Shown here piece by piece: positions 7,799 to 22,855 of a DNA stretch of 64,000 nt; position 1 is the first letter of the stretch, and every line of letters begins with the position of its first letter. The notes below the pieces were generated by a model. It had not been told where the DNA came from. It searched no databases and worked only from the letters and a program-made list of their open reading frames with translations. The DNA is from Gemmatimonas sp. (lineage in GTDB: Bacteria > Gemmatimonadota > Gemmatimonadetes > Gemmatimonadales > Gemmatimonadaceae): NCBI RefSeq assembly GCF_021298855.1, contig NZ_JAJTHI010000052.1:1-64000 (forward strand), given 5' to 3'. Position numbers and translations under genes: made by a program.

Positions 7799-7821
7799 TC
7801 CTCTCACGCCTTGATGTGCTC

Positions 7822-9066
7822 ATGACCCCCCTTCCCACGGCCGCCGACGTGGCGGCGCTCGACGCGGCCGATCCGCTGCGGCACTTCCGGGAACGTTTCA
7901 CGCTCCCCGAGGGCGTGATCTACCTCGATGGCAACTCGCTGGGCGCGCTGCCGCGTCAGACGCCCGACCGTGTAGCCGGGGTCCTGCACGGCGAGTGGGG
8001 GGACGGGCTCATCCGCAGCTGGAACAGCGCCGGGTGGATCTCGGCCCCGCAGCGAGTGGGGGCGAAGATCGCCCGCCTCGTGGGCGCGGCGCCACACGAG
8101 GTGATCGTGGCGGACTCCACGTCGGTGAACCTGCACAAGCTCATCGTGGCCGCACTGTCCGCGCAGCGGGGGCGCCATGTGGTGCTGTCGGAGCCTGGCA
8201 ACTTTCCCACCGATCTCTACATGGCGGAGACGGCCATCGGTTCGCTCGGTGCAGGGCACCGGCTGGCATTGGCGCCGCGTGACGTACTGGTGGCGCACAT
8301 CACGCGCGATACGGCACTGGTGATGCTCACCCACGTGCACTACAAGACGGCCGACATGTACGACATGGCGGCCATCACGGCGGCCGCGCACGCCCAGGGG
8401 GCCCTCGTGCTCTGGGATCTCAGCCACTCGGTGGGTGCCGTCCCGCTGCAGCTCAGCGCCTGCCAGGCGGATCTGGCCGTGGGGTGCGGCTACAAGTTCC
8501 TCAACGGCGGTCCGGGGGCGCCGGCGTTTCTGTACGTCGCCGCGCGACACCAGGCCGCCCTGCAGTCACCGCTCGGGGGGTGGATGGGGCACGCCCGTCC
8601 CTTCGAGTTCGTGGACGGGTACGAACCGGCTCCGGGCATCGCCCGCTTTCTGTGCGGGACCCCACCCATCCTTGCGGTGGCGGCGCTCGAGAGCGGCGTC
8701 GATCTGCATCTGGAAGCGGACATGGGACAGATCGCGGCCAAGTCGCGTGCGCTCGCGACGCTGTTCATCGAACTGGTGGAGGCGCACTGCCACGCGTACG
8801 ACGTGACGCTGGTTGGGCCGCCGCCGGGCGCCCCGCGCGGCAGTCACGTGTCGTTCCGGCATCCTGCCGGCTACGCCATCATGCAGGCGCTCATCGATCG
8901 CGGCGTGATCGGCGACTTCCGGGCGCCGGACATCATGCGGTTCGGGCTGACCCCGCTCTACCTGCGCTTTGCCGACGTGGCGCGCGCGGTGGAGATCCTG
9001 GCCGACGTGCTGCGCACCGAGGCGTGGCGTGCGCCCGCGTATCAGGTGCGTCGCGCGGTCACCTGA
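7822..9066 (+). CDS. kynU: Kynureninase
   Basis: PLP enzyme that cleaves L-kynurenine to anthranilate and L-alanine (or 3-hydroxykynurenine to 3-hydroxyanthranilate). About 414 aa, as usual. Motifs: YLDGNSLGALP near the N terminus, FPTDLY, the WDLSHSVGA segment with the PLP Asp, and CGYKFLNGGPG with Schiff-base Lys225. The start is taken at ATG 7822; a GTG at 7816 in the same frame is possible and would add two residues. It sits between the IDO gene and the ureohydrolase (6 nt). Because the downstream operon handles anthranilate and no 3-hydroxyanthranilate dioxygenase is present, anthranilate is the expected product. Confidence 0.95.
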   Translation: MTPLPTAADVAALDAADPLRHFRERFTLPEGVIYLDGNSLGALPRQTPDRVAGVLHGEWGDGLIRSWNSAGWISAPQRVGAKIARLVGAAPHEVIVADSTSVNLHKLIVAALSAQRGRHVVLSEPGNFPTDLYMAETAIGSLGAGHRLALAPRDVLVAHITRDTALVMLTHVHYKTADMYDMAAITAAAHAQGALVLWDLSHSVGAVPLQLSACQADLAVGCGYKFLNGGPGAPAFLYVAARHQAALQSPLGGWMGHARPFEFVDGYEPAPGIARFLCGTPPILAVAALESGVDLHLEADMGQIAAKSRALATLFIELVEAHCHAYDVTLVGPPPGAPRGSHVSFRHPAGYAIMQALIDRGVIGDFRAPDIMRFGLTPLYLRFADVARAVEILADVLRTEAWRAPAYQVRRAVT

Positions 9067-9072
9067 CTCGCG

Positions 9073-9885
9073 ATGAGTCCAACGGCGGGATCGGGACGCC
9101 CCACGCTGCTCGGCGTGCCATACGATGCGTCGTCCTCGTTCCTGCGCGGCACCGCGTTGGCCCCGTCACACATCCGGAGCGCGCTGCGGGCCGCCTCGTC
9201 GAATCTGTCGACCGAAGACGGGCGAGCGCTCGACACGCTGGGGTGGGACGACGCGGGGGATCTCGAACTGCCCCCTGGTACCGAGGCGCGGTCGTGCATC
9301 GAGGCCGGGGTCGCGCGCCTGCTCGCGACGGGTGGGCGGCCGCTCGTGCTGGGTGGCGATCACTCGGTGACCTACCCGGTGGTACGGGCTGTCGCCCGCG
9401 CGGCGGCGCCGTTCACGATTCTCCACTTCGACGCACACGCGGATCTGTACGACGCGCTCGATGGCGATCGCTACTCGCACGCCTGCCCCTTTGCGCGCAT
9501 CATGGAAGAGGGGTTGGCGGCGCGGCTGGTGCAGGTGGGCGTCCGCACGCTCACCGCGCACCAGCGCGAGCAGGCGCATCGCTTCGGCGTGGAGATGCTC
9601 GACATGCAGGCGTTCGCCGCCGGGGTACGCCCGGCGTTGCCCGGCCCCGTGTATGTCTCGCTCGACCTCGATGTGCTCGATCCGGCGTTCGCCCCCGGTG
9701 TCTCGCACTGGGAACCCGGGGGGCTCAGCACGCGCGAACTGCTCACCATGGTCCAGGCCATCGAGGGACCCATCGTTGGAGCGGACCTGGTGGAGTACAA
9801 CCCGCTCCGTGATCCCACGGGTCTCACGGCCATGGTGGCCGCGAAACTGCTCAAGGAGATGCTGGCCGCGATGACGCGGGAGTGA
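9073..9885 (+). CDS. Ureohydrolase (agmatinase/arginase/formimidoylglutamase family), candidate N-formylkynurenine formamidase
   Basis: Binuclear manganese hydrolase fold, 270 aa. All six metal ligands are visible: His97 (GGDHS), Asp120/His122/Asp124 (DAHAD) and Asp198/Asp200 (LDLDVLDP), followed by SHWEPGGLS. The family hydrolyses guanidino or formimino C-N bonds, releasing urea, formamide or similar. Here it lies 6 nt after kynureninase and directly before the anthranilate genes, far from polyamine or histidine genes, and the cluster lacks the usual kynurenine formamidase. I therefore infer, without direct proof, that it may deformylate N-formylkynurenine. Alternatives are a genuine agmatinase or formimidoylglutamase carried along. 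It is not a close copy of the arginase at the right edge. Confidence 0.85.
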   Translation: MSPTAGSGRPTLLGVPYDASSSFLRGTALAPSHIRSALRAASSNLSTEDGRALDTLGWDDAGDLELPPGTEARSCIEAGVARLLATGGRPLVLGGDHSVTYPVVRAVARAAAPFTILHFDAHADLYDALDGDRYSHACPFARIMEEGLAARLVQVGVRTLTAHQREQAHRFGVEMLDMQAFAAGVRPALPGPVYVSLDLDVLDPAFAPGVSHWEPGGLSTRELLTMVQAIEGPIVGADLVEYNPLRDPTGLTAMVAAKLLKEMLAAMTRE

Positions 9886-9921
9886 TGCCCACGCCAGCCC
9901 CCACGGTGGGCGGCCGGACAG

Positions 9922-9959
9922 CCCGGTTACTTGAAGTTTGAAGTAACGGGTCGTAGCAT
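9922..9959 (+). promoter_or_regulatory. Predicted promoter and MarR-type operator of the anthranilate-CoA operon
   Basis: An inverted repeat with arms GTTACTT (9926-9932) and AAGTAAC (9941-9947) and an 8-nt centre is extended by C/G-rich flanks to 9922-9950. It overlaps TTGAAG (9931-9936), which is spaced exactly 17 nt from TAGCAT (9954-9959). Transcription would begin at about the ATG at 9965, predicting another leaderless mRNA. A MarR gene is the third gene of the operon, so this palindrome is its most likely operator, with repression relieved by an aromatic or CoA-linked ligand. Inference from position and symmetry. Confidence 0.55.
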
Positions 9960-9964
9960 AGCGC

Positions 9965-12324
<2,360 letters not shown>

Positions 12325-12325
<1 letters not shown>

Positions 12326-13116
12326 TGCGCTCCGCCGATGCCAGCGCCACCCCTCCGGTGTCGCCGCGTCCGGAGACGGTCCATGCGGTGATCACCGGGG
12401 CTGGCCGGGGGATTGGCGCGGCCATTGCCCGCCACCTGCACGAGGCCGGCATGCAACTCACGTTGCTCGGGCGTACGGAATCCGCGCTGCGGCATACCGC
12501 CGACGCCCTGGGAGGCGCCGTTCGCGTGGCGGTGTGTGACGTGGCCGATTCGCCGGCCGTGGAGCGGACCTTTGCCGCGCTGCCACCGGTGCACGTGCTG
12601 GTCAACAACGCCGGCCAGGCAGAGAGTGCCACCCTGTCGCGCACCACCGACGAACTCTGGCAGCGCATGCTGGGGGTGAACCTGACGGGCACGTTCCACT
12701 GTACGCGCGCGGTGGCGGAGGGGATGCGCCGTGCGCGGTGGGGACGCATCGTGAACATCGCCAGCACCGCGGGGCAGCGCGGCTATCCCTATGTGGCCGC
12801 CTATGCGGCCGCGAAGCACGGGGTCATCGGATTCACCCGCTCCCTGGCACTCGAACTGGCCCCGAGCGGCGTCACCGTGAACGCCGTCTGCCCGGGCTTC
12901 ACCGACACGGCGCTGCTCGACGCGAGTGTCGCCAACATCGTGGCTCGCACCGGGCGCTCCGAGGAAGCGGCCCGGGCGGAGCTGGCCGCGCTCAACCCCC
13001 AGCGGCGCTTCATCACGCCCGACGAGGTCGCGGCCGCGGTCGCGTGGCTCTGCACCGATGGCGCCGCGTCGATCACGGGGCAGGCGCTCTCGGTCAGCGG
13101 CGGCGAGGTCATGTGA
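12325..13116 (+). CDS. SDR family oxidoreductase of the anthranilate operon
   Basis: NAD(P)-dependent short-chain dehydrogenase, 263 aa. TGAGRGIG is the cofactor-binding glycine motif, NNAG and the catalytic set Ser (NIAST), Tyr and Lys (YAAAKHG) are intact, and PGFTDT ends the core. In this operon it most plausibly oxidises a 3-hydroxyacyl-CoA or reduces a keto group formed after ring dearomatisation; which one cannot be told. Start ATG 12325 shares one base with the TGA of the preceding monooxygenase, and the stop region overlaps the regulator start (GTGA), so translation is probably coupled both sides. Confidence 0.9.
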
Positions 13117-13661
13117 GCCCCCGCCGGCACTTTGCGCAGGTGCACGTGGTGGACGACGAGCGCCTCGGTCAGGAGGCGCGGGCGCAGTCGACCGATCACT
13201 CGGCGGTGCGTCTCTGGCTGCGCTTGCTCTCCTGCAGCACGCAGGTCGAGCAGGTCATTCGCGCCCGCCTGCGGGAGCGGTTCGGCATCACGCTGCCGCG
13301 GTTCGACTATCTCGCCCAGCTGGAGCGACACCCCGACGGACTGCGGCTCAACACCCTCACGCGCAATCTCATGGTCACGGGCGGCAACGTGACGCTGCTG
13401 ACGGAGCAGCTCGTGGCCGATGGCTGGGTGGAGCGCGCCACCGATCCCGCGGATCGGCGCTCGACCATCGTGTCGCTGACCTCGTGGGGGCGTCGCGAGT
13501 TCCTGCGCATGGCCGCCGAGCACGAACAGTGGCTGGTGGCGCTGTTCTGCGGTTTCGACGATGTGCATCGCGACGCCCTGTACGAGCACCTCGGCCGCCT
13601 GCGTGCCCATCTGGCACCGCGTGGCCCCTCCACTTCCTCGCGCCAGGAGCGCGCCTCATGA
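13113..13661 (+). CDS. MarR family transcriptional regulator
   Basis: Winged-helix regulator, 182 aa. The start is a GTG at 13113 overlapping the SDR stop. The central region ([30 protein letters not shown]) is the dimerisation and first helices, followed by recognition helix [12 protein letters not shown] and the wing [16 protein letters not shown], the standard MarR wing with the conserved DxRS/T. It lies inside the anthranilate operon and is the natural candidate to bind the palindrome at 9922-9950. Ligand unknown; anthraniloyl-CoA or a related aryl-CoA is plausible by analogy with other aryl-CoA-responsive regulators. Ends in an ATGA overlap with the next gene. Confidence 0.9.
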
Positions 13662-14506
13662 CGACCAGTTCCTCGGCGCTCGATGCCGGCACGCGACTCA
13701 CGATGGCCGGCTTCGCCCCCTCGCACTTCGCGTGGAGCTGCCGCGACGGGGTGGCCACGGTCACGCTGCACCGGCCGGAACGCAAGAATCCGCTCACCTT
13801 CGAGAGCTACGCCGAGCTGCGCGACGCGTTTCGTGCGCTGCGCGCCGCGACCGACGTGCATGCGGTCGTGCTCACCGGAGCCGGCGGCAACTTCTGCTCG
13901 GGCGGGGATGTGCACGACATCATCGCGCCGTTGGTGCAACTGACCGCCCCCGATCTGCTGCGCTTCACGCGCATGACCGGCGACCTCGTGCTGGCCATGC
14001 GCGCCTGCCCACAACCCATCATTGCGGCGGTGGACGGTGTGTGCGCGGGGGCGGGGGCGATTCTCGCCATGGCGTCGGATCTGCGATTGGGCACGGCGCG
14101 CAGCAAGACGGCCTTCCTGTTCAATCGGGTGGGGCTCGCGGGGTGTGACATGGGCGCCTGCGCCCTGCTGCCGCGCATCATCGGGCAGGGGCGCGCCAGC
14201 GAGCTGCTCTTCACTGGTCGCAGCATGAGCGGCGAGGAGGGGGAGCGCTGGGGCTTCTACAACCGACTGGTCGAGCCGGATCGGTTGCTGTCCGATGCGG
14301 ACGCGGTGGCGGGGGCGCTCGCCAGCGGCCCGACGTTCGCCAATGGTCTCACCAAGACCATGTTGCATCAGGAGTGGAGCATGGGCATCGAACAGGCCAT
14401 CGAAGCGGAGGCGCAGGCGCAGGCCCTATGCATGCTGACCGCCGACTTCCGCGCCGCCTACGAGGCCTTCGTGGCCAAGGCGACCCCTCGCTTCAGCGGG
14501 CGCTGA
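13658..14506 (+). CDS. Enoyl-CoA hydratase/isomerase (crotonase) family protein, first of two
   Basis: Crotonase-fold protein, 282 aa, cytoplasmic. The oxyanion-hole segments are visible: [11 protein letters not shown] (first) and [17 protein letters not shown] (second), with [14 protein letters not shown] following. The usual hydratase glutamate pair is not obvious (the segment reads AGCDMG where many have E), so it could catalyse a hydratase, isomerase or ring-opening C-C hydrolase step. The anthranilate-CoA pathway needs such a step after ring reduction. Start ATG 13658 overlaps the MarR stop by 4 nt. The exact reaction is inferred from context only. Confidence 0.88.
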
Positions 14507-14509
14507 GCC

Positions 14510-15703
14510 GTGTCGCACCGCGAGCATCTGTCCTGGCCGTTCTTCACCGCGGCGCACGTGGCGCTGGCCGAGCGTCTCGACCACTGGGCCGCACAGCACG
14601 TGGCGTCGCTGCACTCCGGAGACGCGGACGCGGATTGCCGCGCGCTCGTGCGCGTCCTGGGCGAGCATGGCTGGCTCGCGCATGCCGTGGCGGGCCGGGG
14701 CCACGGCGGGGCCGAGGAGGTCATCGACACCCGCGCGATCTGTCTGCTCCGCGAGACGCTCGCGCGGCACAACGGCCTCGCCGATTTCGCCTTTGCCATG
14801 CAGGGGCTTGGCTCGGGTGCCATCAGCCTCGAGGGCAGTGCCGACCAGCGCGCCCGTTACCTACCGCGGGTCGCGCGTGGTGAGGCCATTGCCGCCTTCG
14901 CGCTGTCCGAGCCCGAGTCCGGGTCGGATGTGGCGGCGCTGTCGTGTGTGGCCCGGCGGGATGGCGCGCAGTACGTGCTGAACGGGGAGAAGACCTGGAT
15001 CTCGAACGGCGGCATCGCCGACTTCTACGTGCTGTTCGCGCGTACGGGCGACGCACCCGGTGCGCGCGGCATCTCGGCGTTCATCGTCGACGCCGACGCG
15101 CCGGGATTCGAGATCGCCGAGCGCATCGACGTGATCGCCCCGCACCCGTTGGCGCGCCTGCGTCTCGTCGACTGTCGCGTGCCGGCGACGCAGCGCCTGG
15201 GGGAGAGTGGGGCCGGCTTCAAATTGGCCATGCGCACCCTGGATGTGTTCCGCACGTCGGTGGCGGCGGCCGCACTGGGTTTTGCGCGTCGTGCCCTGCA
15301 GGAAGCCATGGCGCGTGTGACCACACGCCCGATGTTCGGCGGCGTGCTGGCCGACTTTCAGCTCACGCAGGCCAAGCTGGCCGACATGGCGCTCACGATC
15401 GACAGCGCGGCGTTGCTCACCTATCGCGCGGCGTGGCGGCGCGATGCCGGCCACGCGGTCACGAAGGAGGCGGCGATGGCCAAGTTCGCGGCCACGGAGG
15501 GGGCGCAGCGCGTCATCGATGCCGCCGTGCAGCTGTGGGGCGGAATGGGGGTGGTGCACGAGGTCCCCGTGGAACGGCTGTACCGGGAGATTCGCGCGCT
15601 GCGCATCTACGAAGGGGCAAGTGAAGTGCAACAGCTGATCATTGCCCGCGAACTGCTCAAGGGACACGTGGCCCCCCCCTCACCCACCACTGCGCACCCC
15701 TGA
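14510..15703 (+). CDS. Acyl-CoA dehydrogenase
   Basis: FAD enzyme introducing a C=C next to the CoA thioester, 397 aa. Start is GTG 14510, 3 nt after the previous stop. Typical segments: [24 protein letters not shown] (FAD/substrate contact), [18 protein letters not shown] and the C-terminal [17 protein letters not shown], where the Glu of YEGASE matches the catalytic-base region of many family members. In this operon it would act on a ring-opened or alicyclic dicarboxyl-CoA intermediate. Electrons would go to ETF, which is not encoded in the window. Confidence 0.93.
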
Positions 15704-15707
15704 CGCC

Positions 15708-17345
15708 ATGCCCAGCGCGCATCTCGACACCTTCGCCCGCGACGCCCTCCCCCCCCGGGAGTGGCAGCCGGAGTACCTCTTCGATCTGCCGTCGCTGCAA
15801 TTCCCGCCGCAACTCAACTGTGCGACGGCCCTGCTGGATGATGCCGTGCACGTGCACGGATGGGGCGACCGCGTCTGTCTGCGGGCGCCGGGCGTCACGT
15901 GGAGTTATCGGGAGCTGCTCGACCGGGCCGATCGCATCGCCCATGTCCTGACCAGCGACATGGGACTGGTTCCGGGCAATCGGGTCCTGCTGCGGGCCGC
16001 CAACTGTCCCATGTTGGTCGCGTGCTGGTTTGGCGTGATGAAGGCTGGCGGCATTGCCGTGACCACCATGCCCATGCTGCGTGCCGGTGAGCTGGCCACG
16101 ATCATTCGCATCAGCCGCGCCACGCACGCGCTGGGAGACGGCGCACTGGCTGAAGAATTGCGCGAGGCGGCCACGGCGGAACCCACGCTGCGCCAGATGC
16201 GCTTCTTCCAGGGCGGCGGCGCCGAGGCCCTCGAGCCGGCCATGGCCGCGCACGACCTGCCGTACGTGAATGTCGATACCGCCAGCGACGACACCTGCCT
16301 GCTGGGCTTCACGTCGGGCACGACGGGTGTGCCAAAGGCCACCATGCACTTCCATCGGGACGTCCTGGCGGTGTGCCGGTGCTGGCCGCCGCACGTATTG
16401 CGTCCCACCGCCGACGACGTGTTCATTGGCAGCCCTCCACTGGCCTTCACCTTCGGCCTGGGCGGGCTGGTGCTCTTTCCCATGGCGGTTGGTGCCAGCG
16501 CGGTGTTGCTGGACAAGGTGGCACCGCCGCAGCTGTACGAGGGTATACGCGACTTCGGCGCCACGATTCTGTTCACGGCCCCCACGTCGTACCGCGCCCT
16601 CGTGGCCCTCGGGCACGACCTGCGGGCGCTGCCGCTCCGCAAGTGCGTGTCGGCGGGCGAGGCGCTTCCCGCCGCCACCCGCACGCTGTGGCGTGACGCC
16701 ACGGGCATCGAGCTGATCGACGGCATCGGGGCCACCGAGCTGCTGCACATCTTCATCAGCGCCGACGAGGCGTCCGCTCGCCCGGGAGCCACGGGGAAGG
16801 TCGTGCCCGGGTACCGCGCCGAGGTGGTGGATGACGAGGGGCTCGTCGTGCCGCCGGGTGTGGTGGGGAAGCTGCGCGTGAAGGGGCCCACCGGATGCCG
16901 GTACCTGAACGACGAGCGGCAGCGCGCGTACGTGCGCGACGGATGGAACTACACCGGCGATGCGTACTTCCGCGATGAGGACGGGTATTTCCACTACCAC
17001 GCGCGCACCGACGACCTGATCATTTCGTCGGGCTACAACATTGCCGGCCCCGAAGTGGAGGCCTGCCTGCTGCAGCACGACGCGGTGGCGGAGTGCGGCG
17101 TATATGGCGTGCCGGATGACGAGCGGGGGAACCTCGTGAAGGCGTGGGTGGTGTTGCGTCCCGGCGTGCCCCGTACGGCCGCCACCGTGCGGGCGCTGCA
17201 GGAGTTCGTGAAGGCACACATCGCCCCGTACAAGTACCCGCGCGCGGTGGCCTTCGTGGCGCAGCTGCCGCGTACCGCGACCGGCAAGCTGCAGCGGTTC
17301 CGCCTGCCGCAGTGCGAGGCGCTCCCGCTGGAGGAAACATCATGA
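15708..17345 (+). CDS. Aryl-CoA ligase, likely 2-aminobenzoate-CoA ligase
   Basis: AMP-forming acyl-CoA synthetase, 545 aa, activating anthranilate with ATP and CoA to anthraniloyl-CoA, the entry step for the hybrid pathway. Motifs: FTSGTTGVPKATMHFHR (P-loop), DGIGATELLHIF, YTGDAYFRDEDGYFHYHARTDD, GYNIAGPEVE and the C-terminal TGKLQRF lysine. The pattern is that of benzoate/2-aminobenzoate-CoA ligases. Start at ATG 15708, 4 nt after the dehydrogenase stop; the longer frame from 15642 overlaps the dehydrogenase coding end and is not needed. Specificity for anthranilate is inferred from the adjacent monooxygenase and kynureninase. Confidence 0.92.
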   Translation: MPSAHLDTFARDALPPREWQPEYLFDLPSLQFPPQLNCATALLDDAVHVHGWGDRVCLRAPGVTWSYRELLDRADRIAHVLTSDMGLVPGNRVLLRAANCPMLVACWFGVMKAGGIAVTTMPMLRAGELATIIRISRATHALGDGALAEELREAATAEPTLRQMRFFQGGGAEALEPAMAAHDLPYVNVDTASDDTCLLGFTSGTTGVPKATMHFHRDVLAVCRCWPPHVLRPTADDVFIGSPPLAFTFGLGGLVLFPMAVGASAVLLDKVAPPQLYEGIRDFGATILFTAPTSYRALVALGHDLRALPLRKCVSAGEALPAATRTLWRDATGIELIDGIGATELLHIFISADEASARPGATGKVVPGYRAEVVDDEGLVVPPGVVGKLRVKGPTGCRYLNDERQRAYVRDGWNYTGDAYFRDEDGYFHYHARTDDLIISSGYNIAGPEVEACLLQHDAVAECGVYGVPDDERGNLVKAWVVLRPGVPRTAATVRALQEFVKAHIAPYKYPRAVAFVAQLPRTATGKLQRFRLPQCEALPLEETS

Positions 17346-17767
17346 GCCGCCCGGTGTTTGCGCGGCGATTCCGCGTGCCCTTCAGTGCCTGCGATCCGGC
17401 GGGCATCATGTTCTTCCCGCAGGTGTTTCTGCTGTTCCAGGATCACGTCGACCAGTGGGTGACGGAGGGACTCGGTCTCTCCTATGCCGAACTGCTGGGG
17501 CCACGTCGCGTCGGCCTGCCGTCGGTGCGCTGGGAGAGCGACTTTCGCGCGGTCAGTCGCATGGGCGACGAGCTCGTGATCTCGCTTCAGGTGGAACGGC
17601 TGGGCGAGAAGTCGCTCACGCTGCACTTCGAGGTGCATGGCGACGGCGTCCTGCGCGTGGAAGCGCGGCAGGTGATCGTGTGCACCAATCTCGACACCCA
17701 TCGGTCGATGCCCTTCCCCGATGACCTTCGCGCCGCCATCACGCGTTTCCAGGAGCAGTCGACATGA
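17342..17767 (+). CDS. 4-hydroxybenzoyl-CoA thioesterase family (hot-dog fold) protein
   Basis: Small hot-dog thioesterase, 141 aa. The segment SACDPAGIMFFPQVF carries the Asp-Pro-Ala-Gly motif whose Asp is catalytic in 4-hydroxybenzoyl-CoA thioesterases. The ATG at 17342 overlaps the ligase TGA (ATGA). It probably frees CoA from dead-end aryl-CoA or from a pathway intermediate; such rescue thioesterases accompany several aryl-CoA aerobic pathways. Whether it is proofreading or on-pathway cannot be seen. Confidence 0.88.
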   Translation: MSRPVFARRFRVPFSACDPAGIMFFPQVFLLFQDHVDQWVTEGLGLSYAELLGPRRVGLPSVRWESDFRAVSRMGDELVISLQVERLGEKSLTLHFEVHGDGVLRVEARQVIVCTNLDTHRSMPFPDDLRAAITRFQEQST

Positions 17768-18162
17768 GCCAGGCCCTGCAGCCTGAGGGGTGGATGCGAC
17801 CGCGCGGCTACGCGAACGGCGTGGCTGCGAGCGGCCGGCAGATCTTCGTGGCCGGCATGATCGGCTGGAACGCACGGCAGGAGTTCGTGAGTGACGACTT
17901 CGCCGAACAGGCGCGACAGGCGCTCTGCAATGTGGTCGACGTGCTGCACGCCGGCGGGGCGGGTCCGCAGCATATCGTCCGCATGACCTGGTATGTGGTG
18001 GACCGTGCGGAGTATCAGGCGGCGCTCCCCGCCGTGGGAGCGGCCTTTCGCGATCTCATCGGGCACTACACCATTGCCATGAGCGCGGTGCAGGTGTGCG
18101 CCCTCATGGAGCCGCGCGCGCGGGTGGAGATCGAGGTGACCGCCGTGGTGCCGGAGGGGTGA
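17764..18162 (+). CDS. RidA/YjgF family enamine-imine deaminase
   Basis: 132-aa RidA-fold protein. The conserved C-terminal Arg of the family lies in EPRARVEIEVTA, and FVAGMIGWNA, RMTWYVVD fit the fold. RidA proteins hydrolyse reactive enamines or imines to ketones and ammonia. The product of anthraniloyl-CoA monooxygenase/reductase is a cyclic enamine, so this gene is well placed to remove the amino nitrogen as ammonia, either as a true pathway step or as protection. That role is inference. ATGA overlap with the thioesterase, TGATG with the next gene. Confidence 0.92.
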   Translation: MSQALQPEGWMRPRGYANGVAASGRQIFVAGMIGWNARQEFVSDDFAEQARQALCNVVDVLHAGGAGPQHIVRMTWYVVDRAEYQAALPAVGAAFRDLIGHYTIAMSAVQVCALMEPRARVEIEVTAVVPEG

Positions 18163-19052
18163 TGGCGGACGCTGCCTCGCTGCAGGACGCGCCCTTACGG
18201 TGGGTGCTGGAAGACGGGCTGCTGACGGTCACGATCGACCATCCACCGGTGAACGCCCTGAGTCACGCCGTGCGCACGGGACTCGTGGATGCGGTGGAGC
18301 TGGTGGATCGAACCCCGGCAATCCGCGCCATGATCCTGCGCAGCACGGGCGCCATCTTCATTGGTGGGGCCGATATCCGCGAGTTCGGCGGTCCGCGGCT
18401 CGATCCCCAACTCAACGCCGTCTGCGACCGCCTTGACGCGTGTGAGAAACCGATCATCGCGGCCATGCAGGGCGTCGCACTGGGCGGCGGGTTCGAAGTG
18501 GCGCTGGCGTCGCACTACCGCGTGGCGGCACCGACGGTCGAGGTGGCGTTTCCCGAGGTGCTGCTGGGACTGCTGCCGGGGGCGGGGGGCACGCAGCGCG
18601 CCCCGCGGCTGTGTGGCGCGGCACTGGCACTGGATCTCATGCTGACCGGCAAGCGGCTCCGGGCCCCCGACGCGTTGCAGGCCGGGCTGCTGGATGTGAT
18701 CCATGAGGACCCGGTCGCGCACGCCCGTACGTGGGCGCGATCGCTCGTGGAAGCGGGCGCCCCGCTCCCGCGCGCGCGTGACGGTCGGGCCCTGCGCGAC
18801 GTGGCGGCTCAGCGTGCGGCCGTGGCCGCCGCGGCGGCGCAGCTGCCCGACGATGCGCTCTACCGCCCCGCGCGCGAGCAGATTCTCGCCTGCGTGCGCG
18901 CGGCGGTGGAGCAGCCCTATGCGGCCGGAGCGGCCGTGGAGGCCGAGGCGTTTCTTGCCTGCCTCGCGAGCCCCCAACGCGAACAGCTCGTGCGCGCGTT
19001 CTTCGCGCAGCGGGAGGCGCGGAAGGCGACACCGCCGCCGGAGCGCAACTAG
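18162..19052 (+). CDS. Enoyl-CoA hydratase/isomerase family protein, second of two
   Basis: Crotonase-fold protein, 296 aa, resembling the N-terminal domain of FadB/FadJ-type beta-oxidation proteins: IFIGGADIREF (first oxyanion part), MQGVALGGGFEVALASHYRVA and FPEVLLGLLPGAGGTQR, the last containing the two hydratase-type acidic positions. Unlike FadB there is no fused 3-hydroxyacyl-CoA dehydrogenase domain; the protein ends in a helical tail. Last gene of the operon, starting at ATG 18162 within the RidA stop. It likely hydrates an enoyl-CoA after ring opening, with the SDR as partner dehydrogenase. Confidence 0.92.
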   Translation: MADAASLQDAPLRWVLEDGLLTVTIDHPPVNALSHAVRTGLVDAVELVDRTPAIRAMILRSTGAIFIGGADIREFGGPRLDPQLNAVCDRLDACEKPIIAAMQGVALGGGFEVALASHYRVAAPTVEVAFPEVLLGLLPGAGGTQRAPRLCGAALALDLMLTGKRLRAPDALQAGLLDVIHEDPVAHARTWARSLVEAGAPLPRARDGRALRDVAAQRAAVAAAAAQLPDDALYRPAREQILACVRAAVEQPYAAGAAVEAEAFLACLASPQREQLVRAFFAQREARKATPPPERN

Positions 19053-19098: not shown

Positions 19099-20409
19099 TC
19101 ACGCTGGCGCGATGTGGCGCATCGCGATCTGCGACAATGCGGTAACGCCGCTCTGCTTCATGGTAAGCTCGAACTCCTTGTGCATGATCGCGAGCACCGC
19201 TTCGACCCCTTCCTGGCCGAATGCGCCCAGCCCCCAGATGTACGGGCGCCCAATGCCCGCTGCGGTGGCACCGAGGGCGAGCGCCTTGAACACATCGGTG
19301 CCGCGGCGGAAGCCGCCGTCGCAGATCACGGGGATCTTGCCAGCCGTACCCTTCACCACCTCCGGCAGCGACACGATGGTGGCGCGACGCGAGTTCTCCG
19401 CGCGACCGCCGTGGTTGGAGACGAACAGGCCATCCACGCCGTGTTCCACGGCCAGCGCGGCGTCTTCTTCGGTGACGATGCCCTTGAGCAGCACCTTCAT
19501 GCCCGTGGACTGCTTGAGTCGGTCCACGAACTCCCAGGTGGGCGTCCCCTTCTCGAGCTGCGGCGGCAGCTTCTCGTAGCCCACGAGGTTGGGTTTGCGG
19601 CGATTGTCGCGATCATCGACCCGGCCGCTGACGCCGGGCAGGGGCGGGCCGCCCAGGTGGCACTTGATGCAGTCGCGCGTATCCCGGCGCGCCTCACGCA
19701 CCATCGTGACGCGATTGCTGCCGCCCAGCAGGTCCACCGTGAACGCGATGGCCGGTGCGCCGGCCCGTTCCGCCCGCTTCACCATCTGCTTCGTGATGGA
19801 CCAATCCGACTGGTGATACAGCTGGAACCACACCGGACCGCCGCGGGCCGCGATGGTGTCTTCGATGCTCGTCGTAGCGACGGTGGAGAGCACCATGAGG
19901 TGATCACGCGCCTTGGCCGCCTTGGCGGTGGCCACTTCGCCATCCTTGTGGAAGCCCTTCTGGCTGCCCAGCGGATTCACCACGATGGGTGACGCGTAGC
20001 GCGAGCCGAAGATGGACAGCTGGGTGTCCACCTTGCTCACGTCGATCAGCCGCCGCGGCCTGAGCACCCAACGGTCGAAGCCGGCCCGGTTGGCGGCGAT
20101 GGTCGCGTCGTCGTCGGTGCCGGTCATCAGGTAGCCCCAATGCGCGACCGGGATGTTCTGCCTCGCGACGGGTTCGAAGTCGAACACGTCGAGGGCATCG
20201 GCGGCGCGCGCAATGAGCGGCGGCTGTGCGGCAAGCACCGGGTGGGTGCCGGCGGTCGCCACCTGATCGGCCGCGTGCAGGAGCGCATCGCTGCGGCCGT
20301 TGCCAGCCAGGCGGGCGAGCCAGTCGTGATCGAGTCCCGCCGCGGCGAGCAGCGGACTGCCGGCGAGAAAGGCGAGAAACTGCCGGCGGGAATTCGGGTC
20401 GAGAGCCAT
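19099..20409 (-). CDS. Tat-type FMN-dependent alpha-hydroxyacid dehydrogenase with a CxxCH motif
   Basis: TIM-barrel FMN enzyme (L-lactate dehydrogenase/glycolate oxidase family), 436 aa from ATG 20409. Residues 7-13 (SRRQFLA) plus the hydrophobic stretch after them are a twin-arginine export signal. Active-site markers: WGYLMTGTDDD, FQLYHQ, VLLKGI and SNHGGR with His333. Unusual: in the mobile loop after AFTVDLLGG there is C247-I-K-C250-H251, the covalent haem-c motif, so FMN could pass electrons directly to a c-type haem, by analogy to flavocytochrome b2. Tat export of a c-type cytochrome would be atypical, so haem attachment is unproven. Convergent with the anthranilate operon, divergent from the DUF5916 gene. 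Confidence 0.88.
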   Translation of the reverse strand: MALDPNSRRQFLAFLAGSPLLAAAGLDHDWLARLAGNGRSDALLHAADQVATAGTHPVLAAQPPLIARAADALDVFDFEPVARQNIPVAHWGYLMTGTDDDATIAANRAGFDRWVLRPRRLIDVSKVDTQLSIFGSRYASPIVVNPLGSQKGFHKDGEVATAKAAKARDHLMVLSTVATTSIEDTIAARGGPVWFQLYHQSDWSITKQMVKRAERAGAPAIAFTVDLLGGSNRVTMVREARRDTRDCIKCHLGGPPLPGVSGRVDDRDNRRKPNLVGYEKLPPQLEKGTPTWEFVDRLKQSTGMKVLLKGIVTEEDAALAVEHGVDGLFVSNHGGRAENSRRATIVSLPEVVKGTAGKIPVICDGGFRRGTDVFKALALGATAAGIGRPYIWGLGAFGQEGVEAVLAIMHKEFELTMKQSGVTALSQIAMRHIAPA

Positions 20410-20539
20410 GGTGGTGAATGGGCAGCGTGCGGCGCGGCTTGTCCAGTCACCCGCATGCCGGAAGGCGTCGTCGCCGAACGGTTGGCGGGAGCGGGGCGTA
20501 ATTTGGGGAGTCCTCGCCTCCCTCCTGCCTCCGGGTCTC

Positions 20540-22855
20540 ATGCCGTCGTTTCCCCGCCGCGCCGCTCGTGCGGCGAGCCTTGTGCTTGCCGTGTGCCTTG
20601 CCCCACCCCAACTCGCCGCCCAGCCCGCGGTGCCAGGGGGCGGCATGAAGCTGGATGCCGCCGTGGCCGACTCGTTCGCCCGCGCGGCGCGCGCCAAGCC
20701 GCGCCCCACGGTGAACATCATCAAGGTGGACGGGGACGCCCCCGAGATCGATGGCAAGCTGACCGAGGGCGTCTGGCAGCGCGGGGCGGCGGTCACCGAG
20801 TTCGTGCAACGGGAGCTCAACGAGGGGGTGCCGGCGTCGGAACGCACCGAAGTCCGCTTTGCGAGCGACGGCAAGAACCTGTACATCGGCGCGCGCCTGT
20901 ACGACCGCGAACCGTCGCTGATCATCCCCGGTGAGAAGATCCGCGACGTCACGCTGGCCAACAGCGATTACGTGGCCTTCATCTTCGACACCTATCACGA
21001 CCATCAGAACGGGTTCGTGTTCGGGACCACGCCGGCGGGCATCGAGTACGATGGCCAGGTGATTCGCGAAGGCGAAGGCGGGGGCGCGAATGTGCCGGGG
21101 CAGAACCGCATGCAGGGTGGGGCCATGGGCGGCTTCAACGTGAACTGGGATGCCAGCTGGACAGTGGCCACCTCCATCGACTCGCTGGGATGGACGGCCG
21201 AGTTCCGCATTCCCTTCTCGACCATCCGGTATCAGTCGGCGAATGGGGAACAGACGTGGGGGCTCAACGTGTCGCGCATGATCCGCCGCAAGAACGAGGA
21301 GCTCTATTGGGCCTTCATTCCGCGGCAGTTCAACCTGTACCGCCTCTCGCTGGCCGGAAACCTGGCGCAGTTGCAGCCCCCGGTGCGCCGCATCCAGACG
21401 GTCACGCCGTACGTGCTCACCTCCAGCCAGCAGCGCTGGACGGGCAATCTGCAGTCCACGACCACGCCCACCGAGGTGGGTGGCGAAATCAAGTACGGCG
21501 TGACACCGGCGCTCACGCTCGACCTCACGGTCAACACGGACTTCGCGCAGGTGGAGGTGGATGACCAGCGCGTGAACCTCACGCGGTTCCCCATCTTCTT
21601 CCCCGAGAAACGGCCGTTCTTTCTGGAGAATGCGGGCGTGTTCTCCGCGGGGACGCCGCAGGCCGTGGATCTGTTCTTCACGCGGCGCATCGGTATTTCC
21701 GACAACGGCACCCCGCAACCCATCCTGGGAGGTGGTCGCCTGTCGGGACGTGTCGGCAGCACCACGGTGGGGCTGCTGCAGATGGTGACGGACTCGCCCG
21801 AGCAGGGATCGCCGGGGCAGTCGTTCTCGGTGGCACGCGCCGTACGCGAGGTGGGCGCGCGTTCGCGCTTCGGCCTCATGGCGGTGCAGCGCCTCTCCAC
21901 CGAGGACGCCGGGGATGTGAATCGCACCTTCGCCGTGGATGGGCGTCTCGGGGTGGGGCAGAAGTGGACGAGCGATCTCTGGGCGGCGAAGACGACCACG
22001 CCGGGACGCACGGGCGACGACTTTGCCTACAGTGGGCGCGTCGCGTTCGCCACCAATGTATTCAACGCCAACGCGCGGGTGGCGCAGATCGGTGAGGACT
22101 TCAATCCCGAGGTGGGCTTCATGAGCCGTCCGGCGGGGTACCGGAGCTTCGATGCGACCGCGATGTATCTGGTGCGCAAGCCCGAGTGGGGGTGGTTCCG
22201 TCAGTGGAATCCGCACGTGAGCTATCGCGGCTTCTATGACATCGAGGACGGCTTCCGCCAGACGGGCTACTGGCACATCGACGTGACGGAAATCGAGTTT
22301 GCCAACAGCTCGCGCTTCGGCCCGGAGTGGAACATCTCCCAGGAAGGGCTCCGGGTGCCCTTCGAGATTTCGCCGGGGGTGGTGCTGCAACCCGGGCAGT
22401 ATCAGTGGGGCACGCTCGGGTTCGACTACACCACTGACCCCAGCGAGAACATCACCGCCACCGGGCGCTTCGATTTCGGCCAGTTCTGGACGGGGACGCG
22501 CAACGGCGGCAGCGGCACGCTCACCGTGCGTCGCGGCGCGACGTTCTCGGGCTCGCTGACGGTGGATCACAACGACGTGCGCCTGCCCGAAGGCAACTTC
22601 ACGCGCACCCTGCAGGCGGTGCGGCTCAACTATTTCTTCACGCCGCGCATCTTCGTGCAGACGCTCACCCAGTACAACAACCAGCAGAAGATCTGGTCGG
22701 CCAACGTCCGCTTCGGCTGGCTCAACACCGCCGGTACCGGGCTGTTCGTGGTGCTCAACGACGGGCGTGAGGCCACCGGCTTCTTCGACTGGGTGCGCCC
22801 GCAGCAGCGCAGCCTGTTCGTGAAGTTCACGCGGCAGTTCGGGACGGGCGGCTGA
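20540..22855 (+). CDS. DUF5916/CBM9-like outer-membrane barrel protein
   Basis: 771-aa exported protein. Start at ATG 20540 gives an Arg-rich N terminus, hydrophobic core and cleavage near LAAQP. Residues about 55-230 form a carbohydrate-binding family 9-like beta sandwich (KVDGDAPEIDGKLTEGVW, then YIGARLYDREP, VAFIFDTYHD). The rest is a DUF5916-type region ending in amphipathic beta strands with a C-terminal RSLFVKFTRQFG, consistent with a membrane barrel. FFPEKRPFFLENAGVF is a hallmark segment of the family. Function of DUF5916 proteins is not established; many bacteria that secrete hydrolases carry several. A longer frame from 20408 overlaps the divergent promoter region and is rejected. 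Confidence 0.9.
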   Translation: MPSFPRRAARAASLVLAVCLAPPQLAAQPAVPGGGMKLDAAVADSFARAARAKPRPTVNIIKVDGDAPEIDGKLTEGVWQRGAAVTEFVQRELNEGVPASERTEVRFASDGKNLYIGARLYDREPSLIIPGEKIRDVTLANSDYVAFIFDTYHDHQNGFVFGTTPAGIEYDGQVIREGEGGGANVPGQNRMQGGAMGGFNVNWDASWTVATSIDSLGWTAEFRIPFSTIRYQSANGEQTWGLNVSRMIRRKNEELYWAFIPRQFNLYRLSLAGNLAQLQPPVRRIQTVTPYVLTSSQQRWTGNLQSTTTPTEVGGEIKYGVTPALTLDLTVNTDFAQVEVDDQRVNLTRFPIFFPEKRPFFLENAGVFSAGTPQAVDLFFTRRIGISDNGTPQPILGGGRLSGRVGSTTVGLLQMVTDSPEQGSPGQSFSVARAVREVGARSRFGLMAVQRLSTEDAGDVNRTFAVDGRLGVGQKWTSDLWAAKTTTPGRTGDDFAYSGRVAFATNVFNANARVAQIGEDFNPEVGFMSRPAGYRSFDATAMYLVRKPEWGWFRQWNPHVSYRGFYDIEDGFRQTGYWHIDVTEIEFANSSRFGPEWNISQEGLRVPFEISPGVVLQPGQYQWGTLGFDYTTDPSENITATGRFDFGQFWTGTRNGGSGTLTVRRGATFSGSLTVDHNDVRLPEGNFTRTLQAVRLNYFFTPRIFVQTLTQYNNQQKIWSANVRFGWLNTAGTGLFVVLNDGREATGFFDWVRPQQRSLFVKFTRQFGTGG

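Follow-up and report, generated by a model that had tools for sequence, protein, structure and literature searches.

The window analysed here is the whole stretch from position 1 to position 64,000 of contig NZ_JAJTHI010000052.1 (GCF_021298855.1, Gemmatimonas sp.), numbered on the forward strand. It contains a gene for a 436-residue protein of the FMN hydroxyacid dehydrogenase (FMN_dh) family, whose product has 94% identity to its nearest relative in the core region. Both motifs named in the original prediction, SRRQFL at residues 7-12 and CIKCH at residues 247-251, are present in the translation of 19099-20409; the strand, unstated earlier, is minus. The features of the gene are as follows.

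19099..20409, minus strand: FMN_dh gene, 436 aa, with CxxCH and predicted Tat export (translation, PF01070, phylum-wide conservation)
19099-19101, minus strand: stop codon of the FMN_dh gene
19402..19413, minus strand: H333-G-G-R336, catalytic, equivalent to H254/R257 of glycolate oxidase (54/54 members)
19537..19731, minus strand: loop 4 (residues 227-291), which differs in length and sequence from member to member of the family (alignment; low-confidence region of the model)
19588..19596, minus strand: K272-P273-N274 after CxxCH, K-P-[MNA] in the family (P in 53/54; third residue M in 29, N in 19, A in 6)
19657..19671, minus strand: C247-I-K-C-H251, putative haem c attachment motif (C247, C250 and H251 are the sole invariant residues within 239-290)
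20131..20133, minus strand: Y93, active site, equivalent to Y24 of spinach glycolate oxidase (ungapped alignment to 1al7)
20140..20142, minus strand: H90, candidate distal haem ligand (54/54 in the family, 3% in other FMN_dh proteins)
20335..20409, minus strand: twin-arginine signal peptide, about residues 1-25, MALDPNSRRQFLAFLAGSPLLAAAG, predicted by pattern
20374..20391, minus strand: S7-R-R-Q-F-L12, twin-arginine motif (RR then a hydrophobic stretch in 67/67 full-length members)

The end of a plus-strand cluster at 7816-19052 adjoins the FMN_dh gene, the two facing each other. This cluster encodes a kynureninase, an arginase-like protein, a monooxygenase/old-yellow-enzyme fusion, an SDR, a MarR protein, enoyl-CoA hydratases, an acyl-CoA dehydrogenase, a benzoate-CoA-ligase-like protein and RidA, and looks like a pathway for kynurenine/anthranilate breakdown via CoA thioesters. 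The divergent neighbour on the other side (20408-22855) encodes a large protein that is probably secreted and has no match in NCBIfam. Similar neighbours, forming one cluster, stand beside the FMN_dh gene in about 12 loci, and in a Methylobacterium bullatum locus (L022:3692-6146) a class I cytochrome c gene immediately precedes the family member on the same strand. Clustering of gene neighbourhoods across the loci gave no conserved partner of any kind, no consistent cytochrome partner and no pointer to the substrate.

The assignment to the FMN hydroxyacid dehydrogenases made in the original prediction is borne out by a Pfam match to PF01070 (FMN_dh, 363 bits, 1.7e-108) that spans the whole barrel at residues 82-433. 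None of the NCBIfam equivalogs fits the window protein, every score being far under the cut-off, and the nearest solved structure by sequence is spinach glycolate oxidase. An AlphaFold model built from 31 more diverse homologues reached a mean pLDDT of 82.6 and a pTM of 0.79 (the pLDDT was 45 with 17 close homologues) and superposes on glycolate oxidase with a Z score of 47 and an rmsd of 1.8 over 338 residues. The predicted fold class is thus that of glycolate oxidase, and FMN binding and 2-hydroxyacid oxidation are predicted from this fold and from the retained catalytic residues. These residues (Y93, Y198, D226, R233, K309, H333 and R336) correspond to Y24, Y129, D157, R164, K230, H254 and R257 of glycolate oxidase and are kept in 51-54 of 54 members. 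Arg is absent from the R233 column in three of the 54; these look like the three members that do not come from Gemmatimonadota, in whose sequences the Arg may be displaced.

The motif had been placed in the mobile loop over the active site, and this agrees with the alignment and the model: CxxCH falls within loop 4, flanked by barrel strands 4 and 5 (the D226/R233 strand and the strand ending at K309), just past a short helix at 232-241 that starts in the region of Arg233. The model is of low confidence in this stretch. Loop 4 is too small to hold a whole cytochrome c domain; the class I cytochrome c profiles PF00034 and PF13442 gave no match in the loop of the window protein and two matches below the cut-off in the loop of one other member. 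Ahead of the barrel a cytochrome b5 domain (PF00173) is absent, the Pfam scan returning FMN_dh and weak barrel relatives only. H90 is found three residues upstream of Tyr93. In flavocytochrome b2 the equivalent tyrosine, Tyr143, contacts a haem propionate of the b5 domain, which offers a lead.

Conservation of the two motifs was examined at several depths. CxxCH was present in all 18 loci found in a scan of close relatives limited to one genome per species, nearly all of them from Gemmatimonadota. A profile search of 395 Gemmatimonadota genomes gave graded scores in which 93 genomes exceeded about 360 bits, followed by a gap, with ordinary FMN_dh proteins below about 310; every fetched protein above the gap had CxxCH and none below it did. 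Among the sequences that were read, CxxCH occurs in 70/70 family members, with 31 different versions of xx, and in 0/36 other FMN_dh proteins, and a twin-arginine pair followed by a hydrophobic stretch was recognized by pattern in 67/67 members with an intact N terminus. The refuting condition set earlier, a CxxCH that varies among close homologues, was put to the alignment and did not hold: CxxCH is invariant and occurs together with the Tat signal at short and long evolutionary distances alike. The family ranges across Gemmatimonadota and includes a protein on a Methylobacterium bullatum plasmid (52% identical) and members on two contigs from a viral-contig collection; a plasmid search with the Methylobacterium protein as query yielded no further close members. 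A lipobox-like cysteine ends the signal in at least six members (about 11 by eye), which gives independent support for export.

Several side observations concern the same regions. The hydrophobic part of the signal at residues 11-21 (FLxFLAASPLL) is unusually conserved across the family and may have a role beyond targeting. One clade (L076-L080, L082 and L083) has a second cysteine motif, CxxCG, located after the signal and ahead of the barrel; it may serve as a further redox or metal site. L088 is an FMN_dh protein with a Tat-like start and no CxxCH, possibly an exported form of this enzyme type minus the haem motif, and indicates that such a start need not be accompanied by the motif. Finally, L020 (G000:C79:5518-6555) is a second, ordinary FMN_dh gene in the genome of the window protein, with neither a signal nor CxxCH.

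The N terminus and loop 4 were left out of the tree, such that the columns of the trait itself were excluded. The CxxCH family formed one clade (SH-aLRT 100) on a stem of length 0.74. As this is a single clade, the link between Tat signal and CxxCH may reflect one origin, and the evidence lies in what has stayed since and not in the number of sequences. Among 54 diverse members with pairwise identities down to 40%, 35 positions are invariant; exactly four of these, H90, C247, C250 and H251, are specific to the family and the rest are general to FMN_dh proteins. The length of the 239-290 region varies by tens of residues around its three fixed positions, and the two xx residues are free to vary, which is also the case in cytochromes c. 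Judged from these alignments, the four residues are the set that would be needed for a bis-His haem c.

We consider that the protein is probably a periplasmic (S)-2-hydroxyacid dehydrogenase of the FMN_dh family, exported by Tat and working as a one-chain flavocytochrome c. This had been the original proposal and is the best-supported reading as far as sequence goes; we infer the haem attachment, the iron ligands, the acceptor and the substrate. The enzyme would fold and take up FMN in the cytoplasm before export by Tat, and the Ccm machinery would then attach one haem c at C247 and C250 on the exposed, mobile loop 4. H251 would be the proximal iron ligand and H90 the likeliest distal ligand. 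A small 2-hydroxyacid would be oxidized at the H333/R336/Y198/K309/D226 site with reduction of FMN, and electrons would pass from FMN to haem and then singly to a cytochrome c, either soluble or a membrane partner, probably with a lower output of H2O2 than from an oxidase. The active-site residues conform to the family in general. A more specific version, in which four grafted residues (C247, C250, H251 and H90) create a bis-His haem c on a TIM-barrel flavoenzyme devoid of any cytochrome domain, with Ccm attaching the haem to a loop of a folded, FMN-loaded, Tat-exported enzyme, is put forward tentatively, at somewhat short of an even chance.

The machinery for these steps is encoded in the genome itself, which carries CcmE beside a Cytochrom_C_asm gene on contig C7, a second Cytochrom_C_asm protein on contig C57 and one TatC. 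No ResB was found in this genome and, together with CcmE and Cytochrom_C_asm, this indicates System I. Co-occurrence of CcmE with the family (about 89/93 family-bearing genomes versus 370/395 of the phylum sample) is uninformative because nearly the whole phylum carries CcmE. System I recognizes little beyond CXXCH and modifies 12-residue peptides (reviewed in PMC3601427), and thus a folded Tat substrate could plausibly be modified on an exposed loop. The original prediction regarded export by Tat and the attachment of haem as ordinarily separate processes. This stands as a general statement, since soluble apocytochromes c normally cross unfolded through Sec (PMC3601427), but is not absolute, as archaeal Split-Soret cytochromes c have predicted Tat signals (PMC4429474).

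The principal alternative concerns the role of H90. A haem c may be present without H90 as an axial ligand, in which case the iron would be five-coordinate, or its ligand would come from a partner or be the residue that follows K272-P273, and H90 would shape the active site. The K-P-[MNA] motif is conserved and offers a Met at its third residue in 29/54 members, but this residue is Asn or Ala in the other 25/54, the window protein included. The presence of H90 in one FMN_dh protein that lacks CxxCH (L090) counts towards a role in the active site, whereas its occurrence in every family member and in so few other FMN_dh proteins fits a haem ligand better. We regard this alternative as doubtful, though deserving of serious attention. 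It is unlikely that the protein carries no haem at all and that its CxxC pair instead acts as a redox disulfide or as a metal site, gating the active-site loop in the periplasm. Such pairs are widespread as redox and metal motifs, and the N-terminal CxxCG of one clade shows a further cysteine pair within the family; however, the His that follows the second Cys directly is invariant to the same degree as both cysteines (54/54) with xx left free, which is the pattern of haem c. Moreover, no other Cys is invariant in the 54 members, adjacent Cys and His are awkward ligands for a single metal, and an exported CxxCH would meet the Ccm system of its own genome.

The remaining alternatives question the motifs themselves. 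The signal was called by pattern, and the Sec route would fit the usual maturation of cytochromes, such that the protein might be exported by Sec with ordinary cytochrome c maturation or might remain inside the cell. Set against this are the invariable RR and hydrophobic stretch, the several lipobox-like signal endings and the fact that cofactor-folded enzymes are typical Tat cargo, and we consider an error in the Tat reading very unlikely. A chance CxxCH in an ordinary glycolate or lactate oxidase is barely conceivable: the motif does arise in 81 of 200,000 shuffles of the window protein's own residues, but it is invariant despite deep divergence and the alignment already contradicts chance. 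Chance and a lack of conservation were both rejected as explanations on these grounds.

The preferred reading, a one-chain flavocytochrome c, resembles several known systems in part. Flavocytochrome b2 (yeast L-lactate:cytochrome c oxidoreductase, EC 1.1.2.3) has the same FMN_dh barrel and catalytic residues, relays electrons through haem to cytochrome c and works outside the cytoplasm, the last two being likenesses that the window protein would share on its sequence features. In contrast to the separate N-terminal cytochrome b5 domain and non-covalent haem b of flavocytochrome b2, the window protein has no b5 domain, has CxxCH in loop 4 and begins with a Tat-like signal. Flavocytochromes c such as sulfide dehydrogenase (FCC), p-cresol methylhydroxylase and the fumarate reductase Fcc3 combine flavin and haem c in periplasmic relays, but they are built on other flavin folds and have complete cytochrome c domains or subunits. 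The closest solved relatives in sequence and fold are glycolate oxidase and (S)-2-hydroxyacid oxidases (1gox, 5zbm), which differ in being oxidases with no haem, no export and no Cys motif in loop 4. The loop 4 extension of mandelate dehydrogenase is a membrane anchor. Loop 4 is likewise modified by extension in (S)-mandelate dehydrogenase and lactate 2-monooxygenase, without a haem motif (PMC8491902), and this publication, a survey of the EC 1.1.3.15 class, counts b5 domains and an extended loop 4 among the variations, with no mention of CxxCH or signal peptides. Split-Soret cytochrome c (PMC4429474) shares haem c and a predicted twin-arginine signal but is an unrelated protein and no flavoenzyme.

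We found no description of an FMN_dh enzyme with CxxCH in the open-access literature, and the protein thus appears to represent a known enzyme family with a putative haem c graft not previously described there. If true, a flavocytochrome would have arisen by insertion of a haem loop and not by fusion of a cytochrome domain, a route independent of that of flavocytochrome b2. Attachment of haem c to a folded Tat substrate would also bear on whether Ccm needs an unfolded protein. A small single-chain enzyme of this type could suit direct-electron-transfer lactate or glycolate electrodes. Finally, the distribution of the family suggests that periplasmic 2-hydroxyacid oxidation may feed cytochromes in about one quarter of the sampled Gemmatimonadota species (93/395 by score).
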